The notes under the pieces are model-generated. The model was given only the letters and a program-made list of their open reading frames with translations, searched no databases and had not been told where the DNA came from. From a virus: DNA of 37,120 nucleotides. The DNA lies in the IMG/VR virus record IMGVR_UViG_3300033233_000096, positions 1 to 37,120 of that record; one strand, written 5' to 3'. Shown here piece after piece: positions 8,537 through 35,665 of this stretch (positions are counted from its first letter, which is position 1; every line of letters begins with the position of its first letter). A program made the translations under genes and the position numbers.

Positions 8537-8977
8537 TTATGCCGTCAGGCTCTGAATGTCTGCTGCCATGAGCGTCCATGTAACCATCTGACCGTGTGAC
8601 TGATAGACCTTATCAGGAACCTTCTGGAAACTCATGCCCAGGAGCAAATGTGAAGTGCCGTCAGCTGTATTGCGAAGGGTTGCGCCCATCTGTGCCCACT
8701 GGTCAGCCGGTGCAACCATAAGAGCGTTGTAAGCAGCAAGAAGCCACCGATGGACATTCGAGGTCTGCTGGCACTGTATCTGGATGCTTCCATTGCTTCC
8801 TGCGATCTTGCTCACCATCACTGACCCGTCAGCAGCCACATCATGGGCGGTCTTGTCAGTAGCCATGGTCACTGTTACCTGCCCAACGCCTTTCCCATCA
8901 AAGGAATAGGCACCCAGTTCAGGATGGGCCACTGCACCTGAAAGGTCAAGAAATGAATAGGTAGTATGCTTTGCCAT
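8537..8977 (-). CDS. Tail tube protein, DUF3277
   Basis: A 146-aa protein. MAKHTTYSFLDLSGAVAHPELGAYSFDGKGVGQVTVTMATDKTAHDVAADGSVMVSKIAG is the DUF3277 pattern (N-terminal YSF.D...A, then a D.T.hdva.dG.vm.SkiaG strand pair). Members follow the DUF3383 sheath and form the inner tube. It has AAAGGAG at a good distance from ATG 8977. Confidence 0.9.
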   Translation of the reverse strand: MAKHTTYSFLDLSGAVAHPELGAYSFDGKGVGQVTVTMATDKTAHDVAADGSVMVSKIAGSNGSIQIQCQQTSNVHRWLLAAYNALMVAPADQWAQMGATLRNTADGTSHLLLGMSFQKVPDKVYQSHGQMVTWTLMAADIQSLTA

Positions 8978-13319: not shown

Positions 13320-13829
13320 TTACCTTTCAATGTTGTACGAGACTTCGACAATCCCGTTTGCGTCTGCTGCTCCCATGAAGAAGCAATTGGTCACTGCAAT
13401 GTTATTGCCAGCATCTGCTCCTTCAAAAATCTCACCGATGGCATTTCCACCAGCAGTGTTGATACAGACATAGACCTGACCGCCCTTAGAGGCTGTAACA
13501 CCAGCAAAGTCCACCATGATATATCCACGCTTCAGGATATCACAAGGAAGCTCTTTGTTCGGAACACCAGCAGCACCAAGAGCAGAGCCAGCAGCAGTTG
13601 TCTCCTGTACGGGGTATGGCCTTGCAATGAAGCCATAGATGTCCCCAACAGCAGCAGCAGCTGGAAGTGTCCTGACCTTCCCAGACACCATCTTTGTCAG
13701 AGTACCGTACAGCACAGGAGGATAATTCTGGTCGATGATCTCCTGCTGGAGTGATGCCTCAGATACCCTGTTGACCATACCAGGGAATCCTGCAGGCATC
13801 CTTGTGACGTATGCATTTCCGAGTGTCAT
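13320..13829 (-). CDS. Head decoration / structural cement protein
   Basis: A 169-aa beta-rich protein: GNAYVTRMPAGFPGMVNRVSEAS at the N-terminus, a GDIYGFIARPYPVQE segment, LKRGYIMVDFAGVTASKGGQVYVC, and a final ADANGIVEVSYNIER. This is the order found in the DUF2190-like/structural cement proteins encoded between protease and capsid genes, which lock capsid subunits from outside. It has an AAAGGAGGG ribosome site. Confidence 0.8.
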   Translation of the reverse strand: MTLGNAYVTRMPAGFPGMVNRVSEASLQQEIIDQNYPPVLYGTLTKMVSGKVRTLPAAAAVGDIYGFIARPYPVQETTAAGSALGAAGVPNKELPCDILKRGYIMVDFAGVTASKGGQVYVCINTAGGNAIGEIFEGADAGNNIAVTNCFFMGAADANGIVEVSYNIER

Positions 13830-13831
13830 GT

Positions 13832-15085
13832 TTACTTCCCTCCTTTTCTGGCATCCCAGAACTTTTTGTTAGCATCATTGATGCTTGAAACGGAAACTGC
13901 ACCTCTCATAATGTCAGAGGTTTTGTGTTGGACGTTCTGCTTGCTGCCGATCTTCATGACCTCAGATGCACCGATGAAGGCAACATCCATGGACTTGCAG
14001 TCCATCGTCAGGAAGTCTGCTGGATGGCCCATAAGGAAAGGAAGGATAGCAGCCTTGCCATCTTCCGTCTTATAGGCAGCATCAAGGGACTTGCGCTTGA
14101 GCAGGCAGATGCTTTCATCAAAGGTCTTCTTGCTCATGGACTTGACAGTATCCATGGTGGGCCGGGAAAGGTCAGGTGCCAGAATCGAAGACCGATACAT
14201 GACTTCCTGGAGGATAGGAGCAGCATCTTTAGACTTGCCAAAAGGCTTGTCTTTCTCCTCTTCTTCCTCAGCGTCTTCTGTCTCCTTCTTCTTTTTCTTG
14301 GCAGCTTCTTCCTCTTCCTCAGCGTCTTCTGTCTCCTTCTTCTTTTTCTTGGCAGCTTCTTCCTCTTCCTCTTCCACAGCATCCTTGAACATCTTAACCA
14401 GAGAGGCCACTGATCCTTCGATCTTGTCAAGCCTCTGGTCAACCGTCAAGGAGGCATCCTTCACCAGTCCAAGGTCTTTGACCTCATCACTGGTAAGGGA
14501 TTTGAAAAATGCCTTCAGCTTCTCTTTCATACTCCCTCCTTTTTCGTCTTTTGTTTTTGCGTCGTGAATTGCACATAAGCTGCCACAGCGTCCTCGATCT
14601 ACCAGAGCAATATGATTGCCCCTTATGTTCATCTGCTTTCCCTTTCCTGGTGATGTTTCCACATAGTCTGCATCATAGCCATTGCTGATCTCTTTAATCT
14701 TTCCTGACATCACATCATCAATAGTCTGTCTTTCCATGATGAGTAAATCAGCTATAAGGGAATCAGCCTCAAGCCCACTACCACGCCGTACATTCTGTGC
14801 ATGGCCCTTAGACAACTCACTCCAATTGTCTGGGGTTACTGCATCTTCAGGATGATGCATGGTGATGGGCTTGCCCTCGAAAGAGGCAATGGCATCTGCA
14901 TTGAATACTTCCTCAGCATCCCGTGTTATGATGATAGCTCCACGAGCGTCTGCTGTGATAGGCACTTCTCCTTCATAATAGGTTTGGTCACCAGTACGAG
15001 CAATGGGAACATTCCTGCAGATCAGGAATCCCTCTGGGGTGAGTGACTTATTCTTGCTTATATCAACCTTAGTATGAAAGAGCAT
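13832..15085 (-). CDS. DUF2213 protein, likely prohead protease joined to a scaffold-like region
   Basis: A 417-aa protein. Residues 1-165 match DUF2213: EGFLICRNVPIARTGDQTYYEGE, ASFEGKPITMHHPEDAVTPDNW, KEISNGYDADYVETSPGKGKQ, and GNHIALVDRGRCGSLCAIHD. Members lie next to capsid genes and are taken to be capsid maturation proteases. After a linker (AKTKDEKGGSM) the chain becomes highly charged. It includes two 17-residue repeats (AAKKKKKETEDAEEEEE) and then a helical tail, as in scaffold or assembly domains. No separate scaffold gene is seen, so both jobs may lie in one polypeptide. The protease role is inferred. Confidence 0.78.
   Translation of the reverse strand: MLFHTKVDISKNKSLTPEGFLICRNVPIARTGDQTYYEGEVPITADARGAIIITRDAEEVFNADAIASFEGKPITMHHPEDAVTPDNWSELSKGHAQNVRRGSGLEADSLIADLLIMERQTIDDVMSGKIKEISNGYDADYVETSPGKGKQMNIRGNHIALVDRGRCGSLCAIHDAKTKDEKGGSMKEKLKAFFKSLTSDEVKDLGLVKDASLTVDQRLDKIEGSVASLVKMFKDAVEEEEEEAAKKKKKETEDAEEEEEAAKKKKKETEDAEEEEEKDKPFGKSKDAAPILQEVMYRSSILAPDLSRPTMDTVKSMSKKTFDESICLLKRKSLDAAYKTEDGKAAILPFLMGHPADFLTMDCKSMDVAFIGASEVMKIGSKQNVQHKTSDIMRGAVSVSSINDANKKFWDARKGGK
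14262..14363. repeat. 51-bp tandem repeat, two copies, inside the DUF2213 gene
   Basis: CAGCGTCTTCTGTCTCC recurs at 14269 and 14320, exactly 51 bp apart, with the intervening TTCTTCTTTTTCTTGGCAGC shared. Each unit encodes 17 residues of alternating lysine and glutamate runs. The copies look identical over the compared stretch, so the duplication is recent. Confidence 0.9.
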
Positions 15086-25773: not shown

Positions 25774-25821
25774 AATGTTTTGTACTTATTTCTGAAATAG
25801 AAATGGGGTTGTACTGAGGTG

Positions 25822-25851
25822 AGTATATACTCCCACTCAGTATGGAGTAAA
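25822..25851 (-). promoter_or_regulatory. Leftward late-operon promoter, TTTACT-N18-TATACT
   Basis: On the complement strand, -35 TTTACT (25851-25846) and -10 TATACT (25827-25822) are separated by 18 bp, with the terminase start about 49 bp downstream of the -10. The -10 lies inside a perfect 12-bp palindrome GAGTATATACTC (25821-25832), flanked by ACTGAG (25813-25818) and CTCAGT (25836-25841). It looks like a promoter covered by an operator. Confidence 0.65.
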
Positions 25852-25876
25852 GGACTATTTCATGACGATCTTCGCC

Positions 25877-26218
25877 CACCGGTGCAAATTGAAAGGAAAG
25901 GAAACTCCACACCCAGTTTATCCCAATGTTTCTCATGTTGTCTTAAAACACTCAGTAATTTGCACCGGAACACCGGTTTGCACCGGATGCTGTAACTTAT
26001 TAAAAGAAAAAGAAAAACTCATAATTACCGGTGCAAATACTAATTTACTATATTAAATATATTATAGTAATAATACTATAGGTAATAGGTAGTAATAAAG
26101 AATTAATAATAGTGTATATAAAAGATAGGGGAAAGGGCTTGCACCGGAATTGCACCGGGAGCTGAAGTTCCTTCTATATATACTCCCTTTTTTCCTTTAC
26201 CGGTGCATCCGGTGCAAA
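25877..26218. repeat. Iteron-like array of TTTGCACCGG around an AT-rich core
   Basis: Copies of TTTGCACCGG or its complement CCGGTGCAAA: 25879-25888 (-), 25959-25968 (+), 25977-25986 (+), 26028-26037 (-) and 26209-26218 (-). One-mismatch copies are 26138-26147 (+) and 26149-26158 (+). Partial copies are CACCGG 25971-25976 and CCGGTGCA 26200-26207. Two adjacent copies are 11 bp apart, one helical turn. Between them, about 26038-26120 is almost pure A/T. No gene fits this gap. Likely a replication origin and/or operator array. Confidence 0.75.
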
Positions 26219-26266
26219 TTCGCAGATCGAAGCTCCATACCCATACACTCAAGGTCATATTCATCA

Positions 26267-26356: not shown

Positions 26357-26722
26357 ATGCCAAACATTACAGTATCTCTGCCAGCCGATCTTTACCTTGA
26401 GGTAAGTAAACTCAAGAATAAATCTGCCATAGTGACAGCAGCATTGAGGAAACATATTCATCCAATCATCACTCAAAAAGAATATTACTCACCTGAGTAC
26501 TGCAAGGCCCAAGGCATAAAGAGGAACTTGAAGCGTGGGTCAACTGATACATTTGAGGCAGAGCTTGCTAAGCAGGTTAAGGCTCAGAGTGATAGGATAG
26601 CAAAGCTCATGAATGATCAAGAGCAGGAGAGAATACAGCGTGAGGACATTCGATCTAAGTTGGAAAGTGAAGCCAAAAGAGAAATTAAAGAAGAACTCAT
26701 GGCTAAAATTAACGCCATATAA
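26357..26722 (+). CDS. Ribbon-helix-helix DNA-binding protein
   Basis: A 121-aa protein. Residues 1-33, PNITVSLPADLYLEVSKLKNKSAIVTAALRKHI, have the ribbon-helix-helix form: a short strand ITVSL that would insert in the major groove, then two helices. The rest is a long charged helix (EAELAKQVKAQSDRIAKLMNDQEQERIQREDIRSKLESEAKREIKEEL), probably a coiled coil. ATG 26357 follows AAGGAGG; an upstream in-frame extension crosses the promoter and is rejected. It sits between the iteron array and the replication gene, so it may bind the iterons or its own promoter. Confidence 0.75.
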   Translation: MPNITVSLPADLYLEVSKLKNKSAIVTAALRKHIHPIITQKEYYSPEYCKAQGIKRNLKRGSTDTFEAELAKQVKAQSDRIAKLMNDQEQERIQREDIRSKLESEAKREIKEELMAKINAI

Positions 26723-26757: not shown

Positions 26758-26776
26758 ATCGGCTGTGTGTCTCTCC

Positions 26777-26836
26777 TCCCTGCCCGCCTACAGGCTCTTT
26801 AAGGGAAGCGCAGCCCTTAGAGAGTCTGGGCAGGGA
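26777..26836 (+). ncRNA. Bulged 23-bp hairpin in the leader of the replication transcript
   Basis: Outer stem 26777-26785 / 26828-26836 (TCCCTGCCC with GGGCAGGGA, 9 perfect pairs). A 6-nt bulge GCCTAC (26786-26791) lies on the 5' side only. Inner stem 26792-26805 / 26814-26827 has 14 pairs, two of them G-U. The loop AAGCGCAG is at 26806-26813. G-U pairs favour an RNA rather than a DNA role. No U-run follows, so it is not a standard terminator. It begins about 13 nt after the predicted start site. Confidence 0.7.
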
Positions 26837-26892
26837 ACCATTAATACGAGAAGAGATAACACAAATGGTGAGACAGGAGATGAGCACACATC

Positions 26893-29154
26893 ATGTATTC
26901 CCCTAATCAACAGACTGTTTCAAAATCCAAGAAAAAATTTCATATAGAAGATGCCATCCCCATCACAGCTGCCTTTACCAAGAAGCTGTTCAAGGATTTC
27001 ATCACTACAAAGAACTATAAGTTTGAGACTCTTACTGCCCATGGTATTATACAAGGCCAAGCAGTCAGCTCAGATAGCTCAGACAAGAAGAGCAAAAACT
27101 CATACCCTATCATTGGCATTAAGATGGGTGAGCACAGTTACCATTGTGTCAGCTATACTACCTACCAAGACAACCTCCGCTTCATAAACGCCTCAGATAA
27201 ACAAAAACAAAAGCCCGATCTTAATTTGTTAGGCATTAGCATAAGTGCTCCTACAATCTTCTTGACTGAGGGATTCTGGGACATGCTTACGCTGTATGAG
27301 ATGGAGAGATATGCTATGGCTCTCCCGGGAGTGAATAACTTTCCTGATGAGTGGATGGGGTTATTTGAAAATAAGGAAGTGTACATTGTATTTGACAATG
27401 ACAAACCTGGGCAGGAATATGCAAGAAAGTGGTCAATAAAACTAAGCAGCATTGCTAGGTTTGTAAAGGTCATTCATCTGCCATCGAAGATCGAATATAA
27501 TGGAGAAGAGATAGCAGTCAAGGACATCAGTGATCTTTACCACAAAACTTCATTAGCATTTGCTGATGGGTTGCTTACTTCTCTCATAGAAGAGGCTGAA
27601 GAGGTAGAGTTCAACCCACAGCAGTCAATATCAGAAATAATAAACAGTCAAGGAACAGCAGAGCAGAAGTATGTTAACATAGCAACCTTCATTCAGCAGG
27701 ACATAGAGAGTAATGGCGGCAAGATCATACCTTATAATAGCAGTCAGGAATTTGCCATAGCTCTTAATGGTACTTCAATCTTAACTGATGAGCGTATTCA
27801 GACCCACCTCTGCCGTGTTTATGGCTTCCTTCCTTCTGTAACTCTCTGGCGTCAGATATATGACCACTTGTATCAGCTAGCACTCCAAACAACAGATAGC
27901 AAGGTTCATACCTTTAGCCATTATGACCATGATGGTGGTCTTCTCTATATAGGGACTAAGAACAATGGCATGATCAGGATAACATCAGATCGAAGTATCA
28001 GTGCCATATCTGTAGTTCCCCAAGGCTATGATGGCATCTACATTCAGTCCAGCAATGATCTTGACCTTTCCTTTATAGAAGACATGCACAGGATAAGGAC
28101 AGGTACTAGCCTTGAGAGTCTCTTCGATCTATTCCTTCATGATGGTGGTGATGCTCAGAAGTTCCTGCTCAAGACTTGGTTCTATCAGACATTCTTTGAG
28201 CCCCAGATGCGCAATATCTTATGTGTCATTGGTGAGCCTGGGTCTGGTAAGACTATGCTCCTTAAAATCATAAAGGGTATCTTAAATGGGTTCACTGATG
28301 GCCGGTTCAATCCCAATAGCATCCCTGAGGAAGACTACATCTTCCTTGAGATGATTAAGTCTTCCCGCCACCTCTTCTTTGATGAGTTCAATGAGTCAGA
28401 TCCAAGTATCAAGACAAAGTTCCGCATGCTGGCTACTGGCGCTGAGAGCGTATTCAGAGAGAAGTATGCACGCAAGAGCATAAAGTTCAGGCCGAAGGTC
28501 TGGCTGGCTGTATCTGCTCACTCTCCGAAGATTCGAGAGAATGATATTGCTCAGAGGCTCTGCATCATTCGCCTCTCCCACCCAGCTAAGAAGACAAAGC
28601 TCATCAATGAGTTTACCTTCTATAATAACCTAGAGAAAGAGCGTGCCACAATCTGGTCAAGCTTGCTCCTCAACTTGAACAATATACTAGCCAACCTCAA
28701 AGAGAATGGCAAGGCGCAGATCGAATTAAAGAACTATTGCCGGCAGGTGGAGATGGCTGACTTCGCATTCCAAGTCTTCCCGAAAGAGCGTGAGGTTTGC
28801 CAGCATTGCTTCGAGAATATGAATAAGCTCCAGGAAGGATTCTCTGCTGAGTTTGACCCGTTGCTTGACCTCTTGGATGACTGGATGATTCAGAGCAGCA
28901 AGAACTATCATAATGAGGGCAAGGTAGTGGTAGGAGCAAAAGACCTGTATAACGATCTCATGCCACTGGCTAAGGATAAGAACTTAAAGAGCTTCCCCAT
29001 ATCCATCCAAGGGTTTGGAAAGTGGATCCATGGGCGTGTGACTGTACTTGCTGAGATGTATGGGTATGAGCGCAGCAAGGATACAAACCATAACACATGG
29101 CAATATACATTTAACATTCGAGAGAAGATTGCTGGTGAGAAGGAGGTATTTTGA
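26893..29154 (+). CDS. Replication protein: toprim domain plus P-loop helicase-type ATPase
   Basis: A 753-aa protein. A toprim-like region spans about 120-200: PTIFLTEGFWDMLTLYE (catalytic-type Glu126), ALPGVNNF, and VYIVFDNDKPGQEYA (Asp168/Asp170). A P-loop follows, VIGEPGSGKTMLL (447-454), with Walker B RHLFFDEFNE (about 492-501) and a PKVWLAVSAHSPKI...RLCIIRLSHP segment like superfamily 3/DUF3987-type helicases. It would prime and unwind phage DNA. No N-terminal zinc finger is seen. ATG 26893 lies 13 nt after AGGAG, a long spacing. Confidence 0.82.
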   Translation: MYSPNQQTVSKSKKKFHIEDAIPITAAFTKKLFKDFITTKNYKFETLTAHGIIQGQAVSSDSSDKKSKNSYPIIGIKMGEHSYHCVSYTTYQDNLRFINASDKQKQKPDLNLLGISISAPTIFLTEGFWDMLTLYEMERYAMALPGVNNFPDEWMGLFENKEVYIVFDNDKPGQEYARKWSIKLSSIARFVKVIHLPSKIEYNGEEIAVKDISDLYHKTSLAFADGLLTSLIEEAEEVEFNPQQSISEIINSQGTAEQKYVNIATFIQQDIESNGGKIIPYNSSQEFAIALNGTSILTDERIQTHLCRVYGFLPSVTLWRQIYDHLYQLALQTTDSKVHTFSHYDHDGGLLYIGTKNNGMIRITSDRSISAISVVPQGYDGIYIQSSNDLDLSFIEDMHRIRTGTSLESLFDLFLHDGGDAQKFLLKTWFYQTFFEPQMRNILCVIGEPGSGKTMLLKIIKGILNGFTDGRFNPNSIPEEDYIFLEMIKSSRHLFFDEFNESDPSIKTKFRMLATGAESVFREKYARKSIKFRPKVWLAVSAHSPKIRENDIAQRLCIIRLSHPAKKTKLINEFTFYNNLEKERATIWSSLLLNLNNILANLKENGKAQIELKNYCRQVEMADFAFQVFPKEREVCQHCFENMNKLQEGFSAEFDPLLDLLDDWMIQSSKNYHNEGKVVVGAKDLYNDLMPLAKDKNLKSFPISIQGFGKWIHGRVTVLAEMYGYERSKDTNHNTWQYTFNIREKIAGEKEVF

Positions 29155-29348
29155 GTAAGAACAAATATAATGGCACAAGTCATATATCTATAGATTTTGT
29201 ATCATGCCCATTTTGTAAATCTCCAGAAGGTATTCCTTGCAAAACATTGCATCCATCAGTAAGAGCAGATAAGAGAGGGAGCAGGTATACAGAGACTCAT
29301 CAAGCAAGGATTAATAAATACTTTTTAAGTTTGAAGGAGACCAAATGA
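29151..29348 (+). CDS. Small zinc-finger protein of the phage CPxC..GxxC type
   Basis: A 65-aa protein: VSCPFCKSPEGIPCKTLH...RADKRGSRYTETHQARI. The spacing CxxC, then SPEGIPC, and a later H.AR is that of the small DNA-binding zinc fingers common in phages. It starts at TTG 29151 in a TTGA overlap with the replication gene stop, 4 nt after AGGAGG. Confidence 0.7.
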   Translation: MSKNKYNGTSHISIDFVSCPFCKSPEGIPCKTLHPSVRADKRGSRYTETHQARINKYFLSLKETK

Positions 29349-31088: not shown

Positions 31089-31424
31089 ATGAATGCACAG
31101 CAGCTACAAAATGCAATCGCAGCTTGGAGTGATAAGACCTTTGGGTCAAGCATCTTAGATCGCACTGGCAAGCAGATGCCAATAGATCGAAGAGAAGGGC
31201 TCCTCAATCACATGAAGAAGGAGATTGAGGAGCTTAGATTGAAGCCAAACTCACCCACAGAGATGGCAGATATTTTCATGCTTCTCTTAGACTATGCTGC
31301 TCACTCTGGTGTGACAGTGGATATGCTTTTTGATGCCACTCTCAAGAAGCTGGCCATTAACATGAAGCGAAAGTGGGGACCAGTTCAGCCTGATGGTTCT
31401 ATTGAACATGTGAGGGAAGAATGA
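31089..31424 (+). CDS. dATP/dGTP pyrophosphohydrolase-like protein (DUF550, MazG-type)
   Basis: A 111-aa helical protein: AIAAWSDKTFG...REGLLNHMKKEIEELRLKPNSPTEMADIFMLLLDYAAHSGVTVDMLFDATLKKLAINMKRKWG. The metal-binding EIEEL...EMADIFML pair (EExxE...ExxD type) and final kl.iN..RkW fit the DUF550/dATP-dGTP pyrophosphohydrolase group of all-alpha NTP pyrophosphatases. It would trim nucleotide pools during replication. AGGAAGGAG lies before ATG 31089. Confidence 0.8.
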   Translation: MNAQQLQNAIAAWSDKTFGSSILDRTGKQMPIDRREGLLNHMKKEIEELRLKPNSPTEMADIFMLLLDYAAHSGVTVDMLFDATLKKLAINMKRKWGPVQPDGSIEHVREE

Positions 31425-34699: not shown

Positions 34700-34973
34700 T
34701 TGGAAGCACAACAGTGCCAAGAAGATTGCCTTGGCATCTCCTGATAAAGAGGAACCAAGGTTTCAAGGCATAAATGGTGGCGACCTTGTCATGCTCTTGG
34801 CTGATGAGAATGAGTATAAGGTGGTGGGCCGGTATATTTCCTATAGAGATGGGAAGACGCCCATGCTCATCTTAGATCGAAAGGACTGGACAAATGCCAA
34901 GGGCCATCTCTCAGGAGTCCACTCAGTCGAAGAGGTCATAAAACTTCAACCAATCACAAGGAGTAAGAAATGA
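34692..34973 (+). CDS. Hypothetical protein
   Basis: A 93-aa protein starting [88 protein letters not shown]. The middle looks like a small beta barrel. ATG 34692 overlaps the previous gene by 8 bases; GGAGG is only 4 nt upstream. No family recognised. Confidence 0.55.
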
Positions 34974-35665
34974 AAATAACACAAGCTCTATTAGAATCAA
35001 AAGATGCTTGTAAAGAAGGCATCCAAGAATTTGTCAAGGCTTTTCCTGAAGGGTTTGACTTGTCTTTGTGGACTTATGAACGGCAGTTGGAGATAATCAA
35101 GACAGACCTCAGGAAATTCATAGGATGGGCATTCAGAGGAAAAATCATTTCCATGTGGTCAATGTCTGGTGCCAATCTGTCTCGTGCCAATCTGTCTCGT
35201 GCCGATCTGTTTTGTGCCAATCTGTCTGGTGCCAATCTGTCTGGTGCTGATCTGTCTCGTGCCAATCTGTCTCGTGCCGATCTGTCTGGTGCCAATCTGT
35301 CTGATGCCAATCTGTCTGGTGCCAGACTGTCTGGTGCTGATCTGTCTCGTGCCAATCTGTCTGGTGCCAATCTGTCTGGTGCTGATCTGTCTGGTGCCGA
35401 TCTGCCTGGTGCTGATCTGTTTTGTGCTAATCTGTCTGGTGTTGCTGATCTGTCTCGTGCCAATCTGTCTGGTGCCGATCTGTCTGGTGCCAATCTGTCT
35501 CGTGCCGATCTGTCTGGTGCCAATCTGTCTGGTGCCAATCTGTCTGATGCCAATCTGTCTGGTGCCAATCTGTCTGGTGCCAATCTGTCTGATGCCAATC
35601 TGTCTGATGCCAATCTGTCTCGTGCCAATCTGTTTGATGCCATAGGAGTCAAACATGATACCTAA
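34970..35665 (+). CDS. Pentapeptide-repeat protein
   Basis: A 231-aa protein. Residues 1-62 are a helical cap ([20 protein letters not shown]), then about 32 pentapeptides of the form [SRD][AG]-[ND]-L-S. These predict a right-handed quadrilateral beta helix. Repeats such as [10 protein letters not shown] and DANLS dominate; the L faces inward. One extra residue breaks the phase at LSGVADLS (extra codon GTT at 35441-35443). Relatives (Qnr/MfpA) mimic DNA and bind gyrase, but many pentapeptide proteins do other things. Start overlaps the previous stop (ATGA). Confidence 0.85.
35164..35643 (+). repeat. 15-bp tandem repeats encoding the pentapeptides
   Basis: About 32 units of GCCAATCTGTCTGGT and close variants (C/T, A/G and G/C swaps at fixed sites). 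Because 15 is a multiple of 3, other frames on both strands stay open here, giving long false reading frames. Near-uniform codon use (AAT CTG TCT) points to recent slippage-type expansion. Confidence 0.9.

Follow-up and report, generated by a model that had tools for sequence, protein, structure and literature searches.

A proposed iteron-type replication origin beside a P4-family primase-helicase in an uncultured tailed phage

Here, we propose that a compact array of short repeats in the divergent gap of a phage genome is the replication origin of that phage, a reading to which we assign a probability of about 0.8 from analysis of the sequence. This is based on the repeat being specific to the array genome-wide, on the array coinciding with the minima of both melting stability and cumulative GC skew, and on the recurrence of this layout among independent phages and annotated origins. 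The original prediction had offered three functions for this site (a phage origin, a partition-like site or a master operator), and it is the first of these that gained support. The array is best read as belonging to an already known kind of origin, the iteron origin with a P4-family primase-helicase. It is probably served by such a P4-type enzyme, the predicted C-terminal winged helix of which would read the repeats, and on balance we take this primase-helicase to be the main binder of the array.

Organisation of the array

The window, by which we mean the whole stretch of DNA analysed, is an entire IMG/VR virus record of 37,120 bases and has no end repeats. The leftward set of genes specifies terminase, portal, capsid, tail sheath and baseplate proteins, which identifies the virus as a contractile-tailed phage. 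The rightward set opens with the gene for a 121-aa protein, followed by that for a 753-aa primase-helicase, and the array occupies the divergent gap between the two sets, with the start of terS approximately 100 bp away. The array is made up as follows.

25879 to 26218, no strand assigned: iteron array (proposed replication origin), seven exact TTGCACCGG, one near copy and one partial copy
25978 to 26036, no strand assigned: module A, a convergent pair of TTGCACCGG and, across a 41-bp purine-rich spacer, CCGGTGCAA, with 50 bp from one start to the other
26037 to 26138, no strand assigned: AT-rich inter-module tract with the minimum of stability and GC, proposed as DNA unwinding element
26150 to 26208, no strand assigned: module B, a convergent pair of TTGCACCGG and, across a 41-bp pyrimidine-rich spacer, CCGGTGCAT, with 50 bp from one start to the other

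Nine full or partial copies in both orientations had been described within about 340 bp, and all were located: exact TTGCACCGG at 25879 (-), 25960 (+), 25978 (+), 26028 (-), 26139 (+), 26150 (+) and 26209 (-), a one-mismatch copy at 26200 (-), and the partial copy AACACCGG at 25969. Some copies do lie about one helical turn apart, with spacings of 11 and 9 bp; the remaining spacings are 18, 50, 81 and 111 bp. The genome-wide search found the motif to be specific to the array, since only one of its eight exact matches in the 37-kb record, at 8707, falls outside these 340 bp, against a chance expectation of 0.12 exact copies per record and 0.001 per 340 bp. A looser 10-mer search returned many matches at 35.2-35.6 kb, which are repeats within a pentapeptide-repeat gene; that gene (34970-35665, + strand) is highly repetitive.

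The copies are ordered as two 59-bp modules. In both, TTGCACCGG faces CCGGTGCA over a 41-bp spacer, which sets the two members of each convergent pair exactly 50 bp apart. At their displacement of 172 bp, the modules are identical at 32 of 59 positions. Module A is preceded by the direct copy at 25960, and module B is flanked by the copies at 26139 (before) and 26209 (after). The copies bordering the AT-rich tract are directed away from it, with their TTT ends inward.

Between the modules lies the least stable 100 bp of the record (26035-26134), with a nearest-neighbour sum of -99.2 vs -110.5 for the next region, and this central stretch also contains the lowest-GC 60 bp of the record. The centre is AT-rich as originally described (79% A+T over 26038-26138, with the stability minimum of the record), although it does not consist of A and T only. 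Cumulative GC skew, which had been suggested as a check, has its minimum at the array and turns at 26-27 kb; gene direction turns at the same place, and the skew also follows the divergent gene order.

Genes beside the array

The two genes that open the rightward set are the candidate binders.

26357 to 26722, + strand: 121-aa small protein upstream of the primase, with a ribbon-helix-helix (RHH)-like N-terminal pattern and a coiled-coil C-terminus
26893 to 29154, + strand: Toprim and SF3-like primase-helicase (PF13155, TIGR01613), proposed initiator and array reader

That the second gene is a toprim/P-loop replication gene was borne out: its product is a Toprim and P-loop/SF3-like protein that matches PF13155 above the cut-off and TIGR01613 (P4-family) with an E of 5e-5, below the cut-off, and in which Walker A, Walker B and SF3-like motifs are readable. 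No N-terminal zinc domain was seen in it. A C-terminal winged helix is predicted at residues ~656-741 (order H-E-H-H-E-E) in a low-confidence AF2 model with a mean pLDDT of 34, of which the C-terminal part is best (about 60-70) and the whole is too poor for a fold search. The alignment with P4 alpha is weak and colinear, with a shuffle P of 0.05-0.13 for the C-terminal domain. Scans of genome contigs and plasmids returned no relatives of the primase, and the window has no phage nucleotide match. Directly 3' of the primase-helicase gene, a 65-aa zinc-binding protein (PF24623) is encoded at 29151-29348 (+ strand); it is possibly a detached primase zinc finger, the primase-helicase itself being without a visible zinc domain.

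The small protein had been called a ribbon-helix-helix protein. Its N-terminus (ITVSLPADLYLEVSKL..KSAIVTAALRK) does have the strand-helix-helix pattern of RHH proteins, but no family match, RHH included, was found for it in the libraries searched. An AF2 model places helices at residues 10-17 and 22-38 with low confidence, and a scan of viral contigs found no relatives of the gene.

The array in related phages

The closest relatives are two IMG/VR contigs (L009 and L010) that are identical to each other in this region and encode a primase-helicase 97% identical to that of the window. When the gap of L009 is compared with that of the window, the left half proves conserved; divergence is strong in the right half and in the small gene, at the end of which identity returns. 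Absence of the array from relatives that keep both neighbouring genes had been named as grounds for refutation. Both contigs keep the primase and retain the array in degenerate form, together with an almost wholly different small gene. Two exact 9-mers are left in L009, the 50-bp pair spacing is kept (5149/5199), and all five GCACCGG cores of the 14.3-kb locus fall inside the gap. Within the diverged right half, the 7-bp cores are 71% conserved vs 50% for their surroundings, a marginal difference (p 0.03) that is not significant when the comparison is restricted to 26046-26240. A further repeat tract is present in L009 at 13527-13962.

The primase-helicases of the window and L009 differ mainly at the C-terminus: residues 601-753 carry 24 nonsynonymous and 27 synonymous changes, compared with 10 and 113 in residues 1-600 (p 2e-8), and the amino-acid changes cluster at residues 728-735, the predicted wing. 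Such a cluster would be expected of a domain that reads the array, but a similar pattern would result from relaxed constraint.

More distant relatives were drawn from a terminase search that gave 80 loci, from which 40 records with related terminases were checked for TIGR01613. Matches, all below the curated cut-off, were found in 4 of the 40 (the window, L009, L016 and the L050/L124 record), and each of them carries an array in its divergent gap, with a repeat word specific to the lineage. In L016, the terminase genes diverge from the gene of a 676-aa primase-helicase with DUF3854 (Toprim-like by sequence) and DUF5906 that is too diverged for BLASTP against that of the window. All nine near-exact copies of AACTCACGTT in the 10-kb locus fall in the L016 gap, as do the 60 bp of lowest GC. 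In L124, nine copies of TTTGCCCTA lie upstream of the gene for a 1005-aa primase-helicase, around an AT-rich tract and with the polarity seen in the window. Both share with the window the divergent terminase and primase operons and the iteron array in the gap, and differ from it in their repeat words and in the small regulator, which is absent from L016 and replaced by an XRE-like gene in L124. In contrast, the closest terminase relative (L015, TerL 67%) lacks both the array and a P4-family primase; its P-loop gene reads, by sequence, as a DnaC-type loader. With an array in the TIGR01613 records, none in L015 and a variable small gene, the array therefore tracks the primase-helicase rather than the RHH-like gene or the terminase.

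This distribution bears on the view that the array is an operator for the 121-aa protein, which would coat the repeats and repress or activate the divergent operons. Ribbon-helix-helix proteins bind repeated sites, the gene adjoins the array and encodes the strand-helix-helix pattern, and the right half of the gap has diverged together with it. However, the L009 counterpart (BLASTP E 0.29) is barely recognisable as a relative and differs even in the putative DNA-contacting strand, whereas the GCACCGG cores are kept; the L016 and L124 arrays occur with no such gene; RHH family matches are lacking; and no predicted promoter is overlapped by an iteron copy. We thus consider this operator unlikely, and the original candidacy of the small protein as array binder was not supported. 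More likely, it is a regulator of the operon or of copy number and not the main binder, in a position comparable to that of ORF56 of pRN1.

Another element of the gap would fit the role of operator more readily.

25814 to 25842, no strand assigned: nested dyad ACTGAG..GAGTATATACTC..CTCAGT, overlapping the -10 of the leftward promoter
25822 to 25851, - strand: sigma70-like leftward promoter TTTACT-18-TATACT, upstream of terS

The dyad, with its GAGTATATACTC core at 25821-25832, is unlike the iteron in sequence and has no genome-wide over-representation; its L009 counterpart is altered in sequence with the dyad symmetry retained. We propose that it is an operator or leader hairpin of the terS operon, and as an operator it would be a better candidate than the iterons. 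With the copies clear of the predicted promoters and this overlapping dyad of different sequence, the master-operator suggestion found no support. Neither did the partition-like site, and no partner ParA ATPase was found among the genes scanned (a subset of the ORFs).

Beyond these relatives, viral contigs were scanned for paired TTTGCACCGG; of the 17 stretches recovered, all except one were judged to be repeats inside ORFs. The exception, in an unrelated contig (L107, 2789-2819, - strand), is a tandem run of three TTGCACCGG at 11-bp intervals that closely precedes a TTGACA-17-TATCAT promoter and lies between ArpU-like and ParB-like genes named from sequence only. Among the literature matches listed, the repeat word occurred in unrelated papers only. 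Further repeat arrays are present in terminase-related phages at L060:2811-2913 and L025:1953-2264, one of them beside a Prim-Pol/AAA replication gene; these are possible origins of another type.

Comparison with known origins

A wider check covered P4 and ten annotated phages with P4-family primases, an array being defined as at least six copies on both strands. Arrays were found at 7 of 14 P4-family loci vs 3 of 45 control loci (p 0.0008), or at 4 of 11 P4-family loci when the three first found through their arrays are set aside (p 0.022). By the same detector, the other 7 of the 14 P4-family loci have no array, so the link between array and primase is not universal. In Halomonas phage H4907, phi-adh and Mcat5, the array begins directly 3' of the primase gene.

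P4 alpha binds the origin repeats via its C-terminal winged helix, then unwinds and primes (PMC4234260), and the structure of that domain is available (1KA8). P4 ori and crr share with the window short iterons in both orientations, AT-rich DNA and an initiator with Toprim and an SF3-like helicase. The annotated ori and both crr repeats of P4 hold convergent pairs exactly 43 bp apart (three times), as compared with 50 bp (twice) in the window, in each case with the CACC ends inward, and the iterons (TGTTCACC in P4 against TTTGCACC in the window) are identical at 6 of 8 positions. Unlike P4, the window has one compact locus and no second iteron cluster resembling crr anywhere in the 37-kb record, and thus we do not file it as a P4 replicon. 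Unlike P4 alpha, its protein has no visible N-terminal zinc domain, and a separate small zinc-binding gene follows.

In phi-adh, the array is the annotated rep_origin and, as in the window, iterons point outward on both sides of an AT tract beside a P4-family primase; the differences are that this origin lies downstream of the primase, that its repeat word is AACTATACAC, and that its copies are mostly direct. In the replication operon of plasmid pRN1, orf56 and orf904 encode a small regulator and then a primase-helicase with a C-terminal winged helix (PMC4234260), an order matched in the window, where the winged helix is predicted. However, the pRN1 origin is a stem-loop downstream of the operon, with no iterons, and the primase is of the prim-pol type.

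Could the array instead serve packaging, as a pac or cosB-like site to which the small terminase subunit binds? The array immediately precedes terS-terL, lambda cosB sits at the corresponding place upstream of the terminase genes, and the L016 array is also beside terS. We nevertheless regard this as very unlikely, given that L015 has no array upstream of its terminase, that several genes separate array and terminase in L050/L124, that the arrays of phi-adh, Mcat5, P4 and H4907 are beside the primase or away from the terminase, and that three contigs assemble straight across the site. The least probable reading is that the gap contains activator sites, in tandem 11 bp apart upstream of a -10, that serve early or late promoters there: the 26139/26150 pair has this spacing and is followed by a conserved AAGTTCCTTCTATATATACTCC island, and the L107 triplet precedes a promoter, but the copies occur in both orientations and well away from either predicted promoter, a simple activator leaves the central AT minimum and the match to known origins unexplained, and the single L107 match may be chance among many tandem repeats.

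Proposed mechanism and implications

Returning to the array as an iteron origin, how might it work? The C-terminal winged helix of the primase-helicase would bind the iterons, and the protein would assemble on the convergent pairs so that helicase rings are loaded facing each other. The AT tract would then open, and the same primase-helicase would unwind the DNA and prime bidirectional replication. The small protein encoded upstream may regulate the operon or copy number.

More tentatively, and with considerable doubt, this may be a compact single-locus form of P4-type origin, with two symmetric modules of 50-bp convergent pairs, in which changes in the wing accompany changes in the iteron flanks from one close relative to another. 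If so, such phages would provide a natural series for the evolution of origin specificity, with the small regulator freely swapped alongside. The close-relative pair, with its altered sites and altered predicted wing, offers a ready test of initiator-origin recognition. In addition, the array provides a testable candidate origin in uncultured tailed phages of a group that is nearly without relatives in annotated collections, and it suggests a search rule: near P4-family primase-helicases, look for repeats that flank a melting minimum and are directed away from it.

Other features of the record

The ORF at 25862-26056 (64 aa), which spans the left half of the array, was rejected as a gene, with 19 nonsynonymous vs 1 synonymous change when the window is compared with L009. 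Folding predicts a structured leader between the small gene and the primase gene.

26776 to 26837, + strand: long near-perfect RNA hairpin of this leader

A 96-nt stretch here has an MFE of -42 kcal/mol (z -4.0), and L009 has the same structure; the hairpin may act as an attenuator in the leader or as a site of single-strand initiation. Further along the rightward set, a protein of the dATP/dGTP pyrophosphohydrolase family (PF04447) is encoded at 31089-31424 (+ strand).
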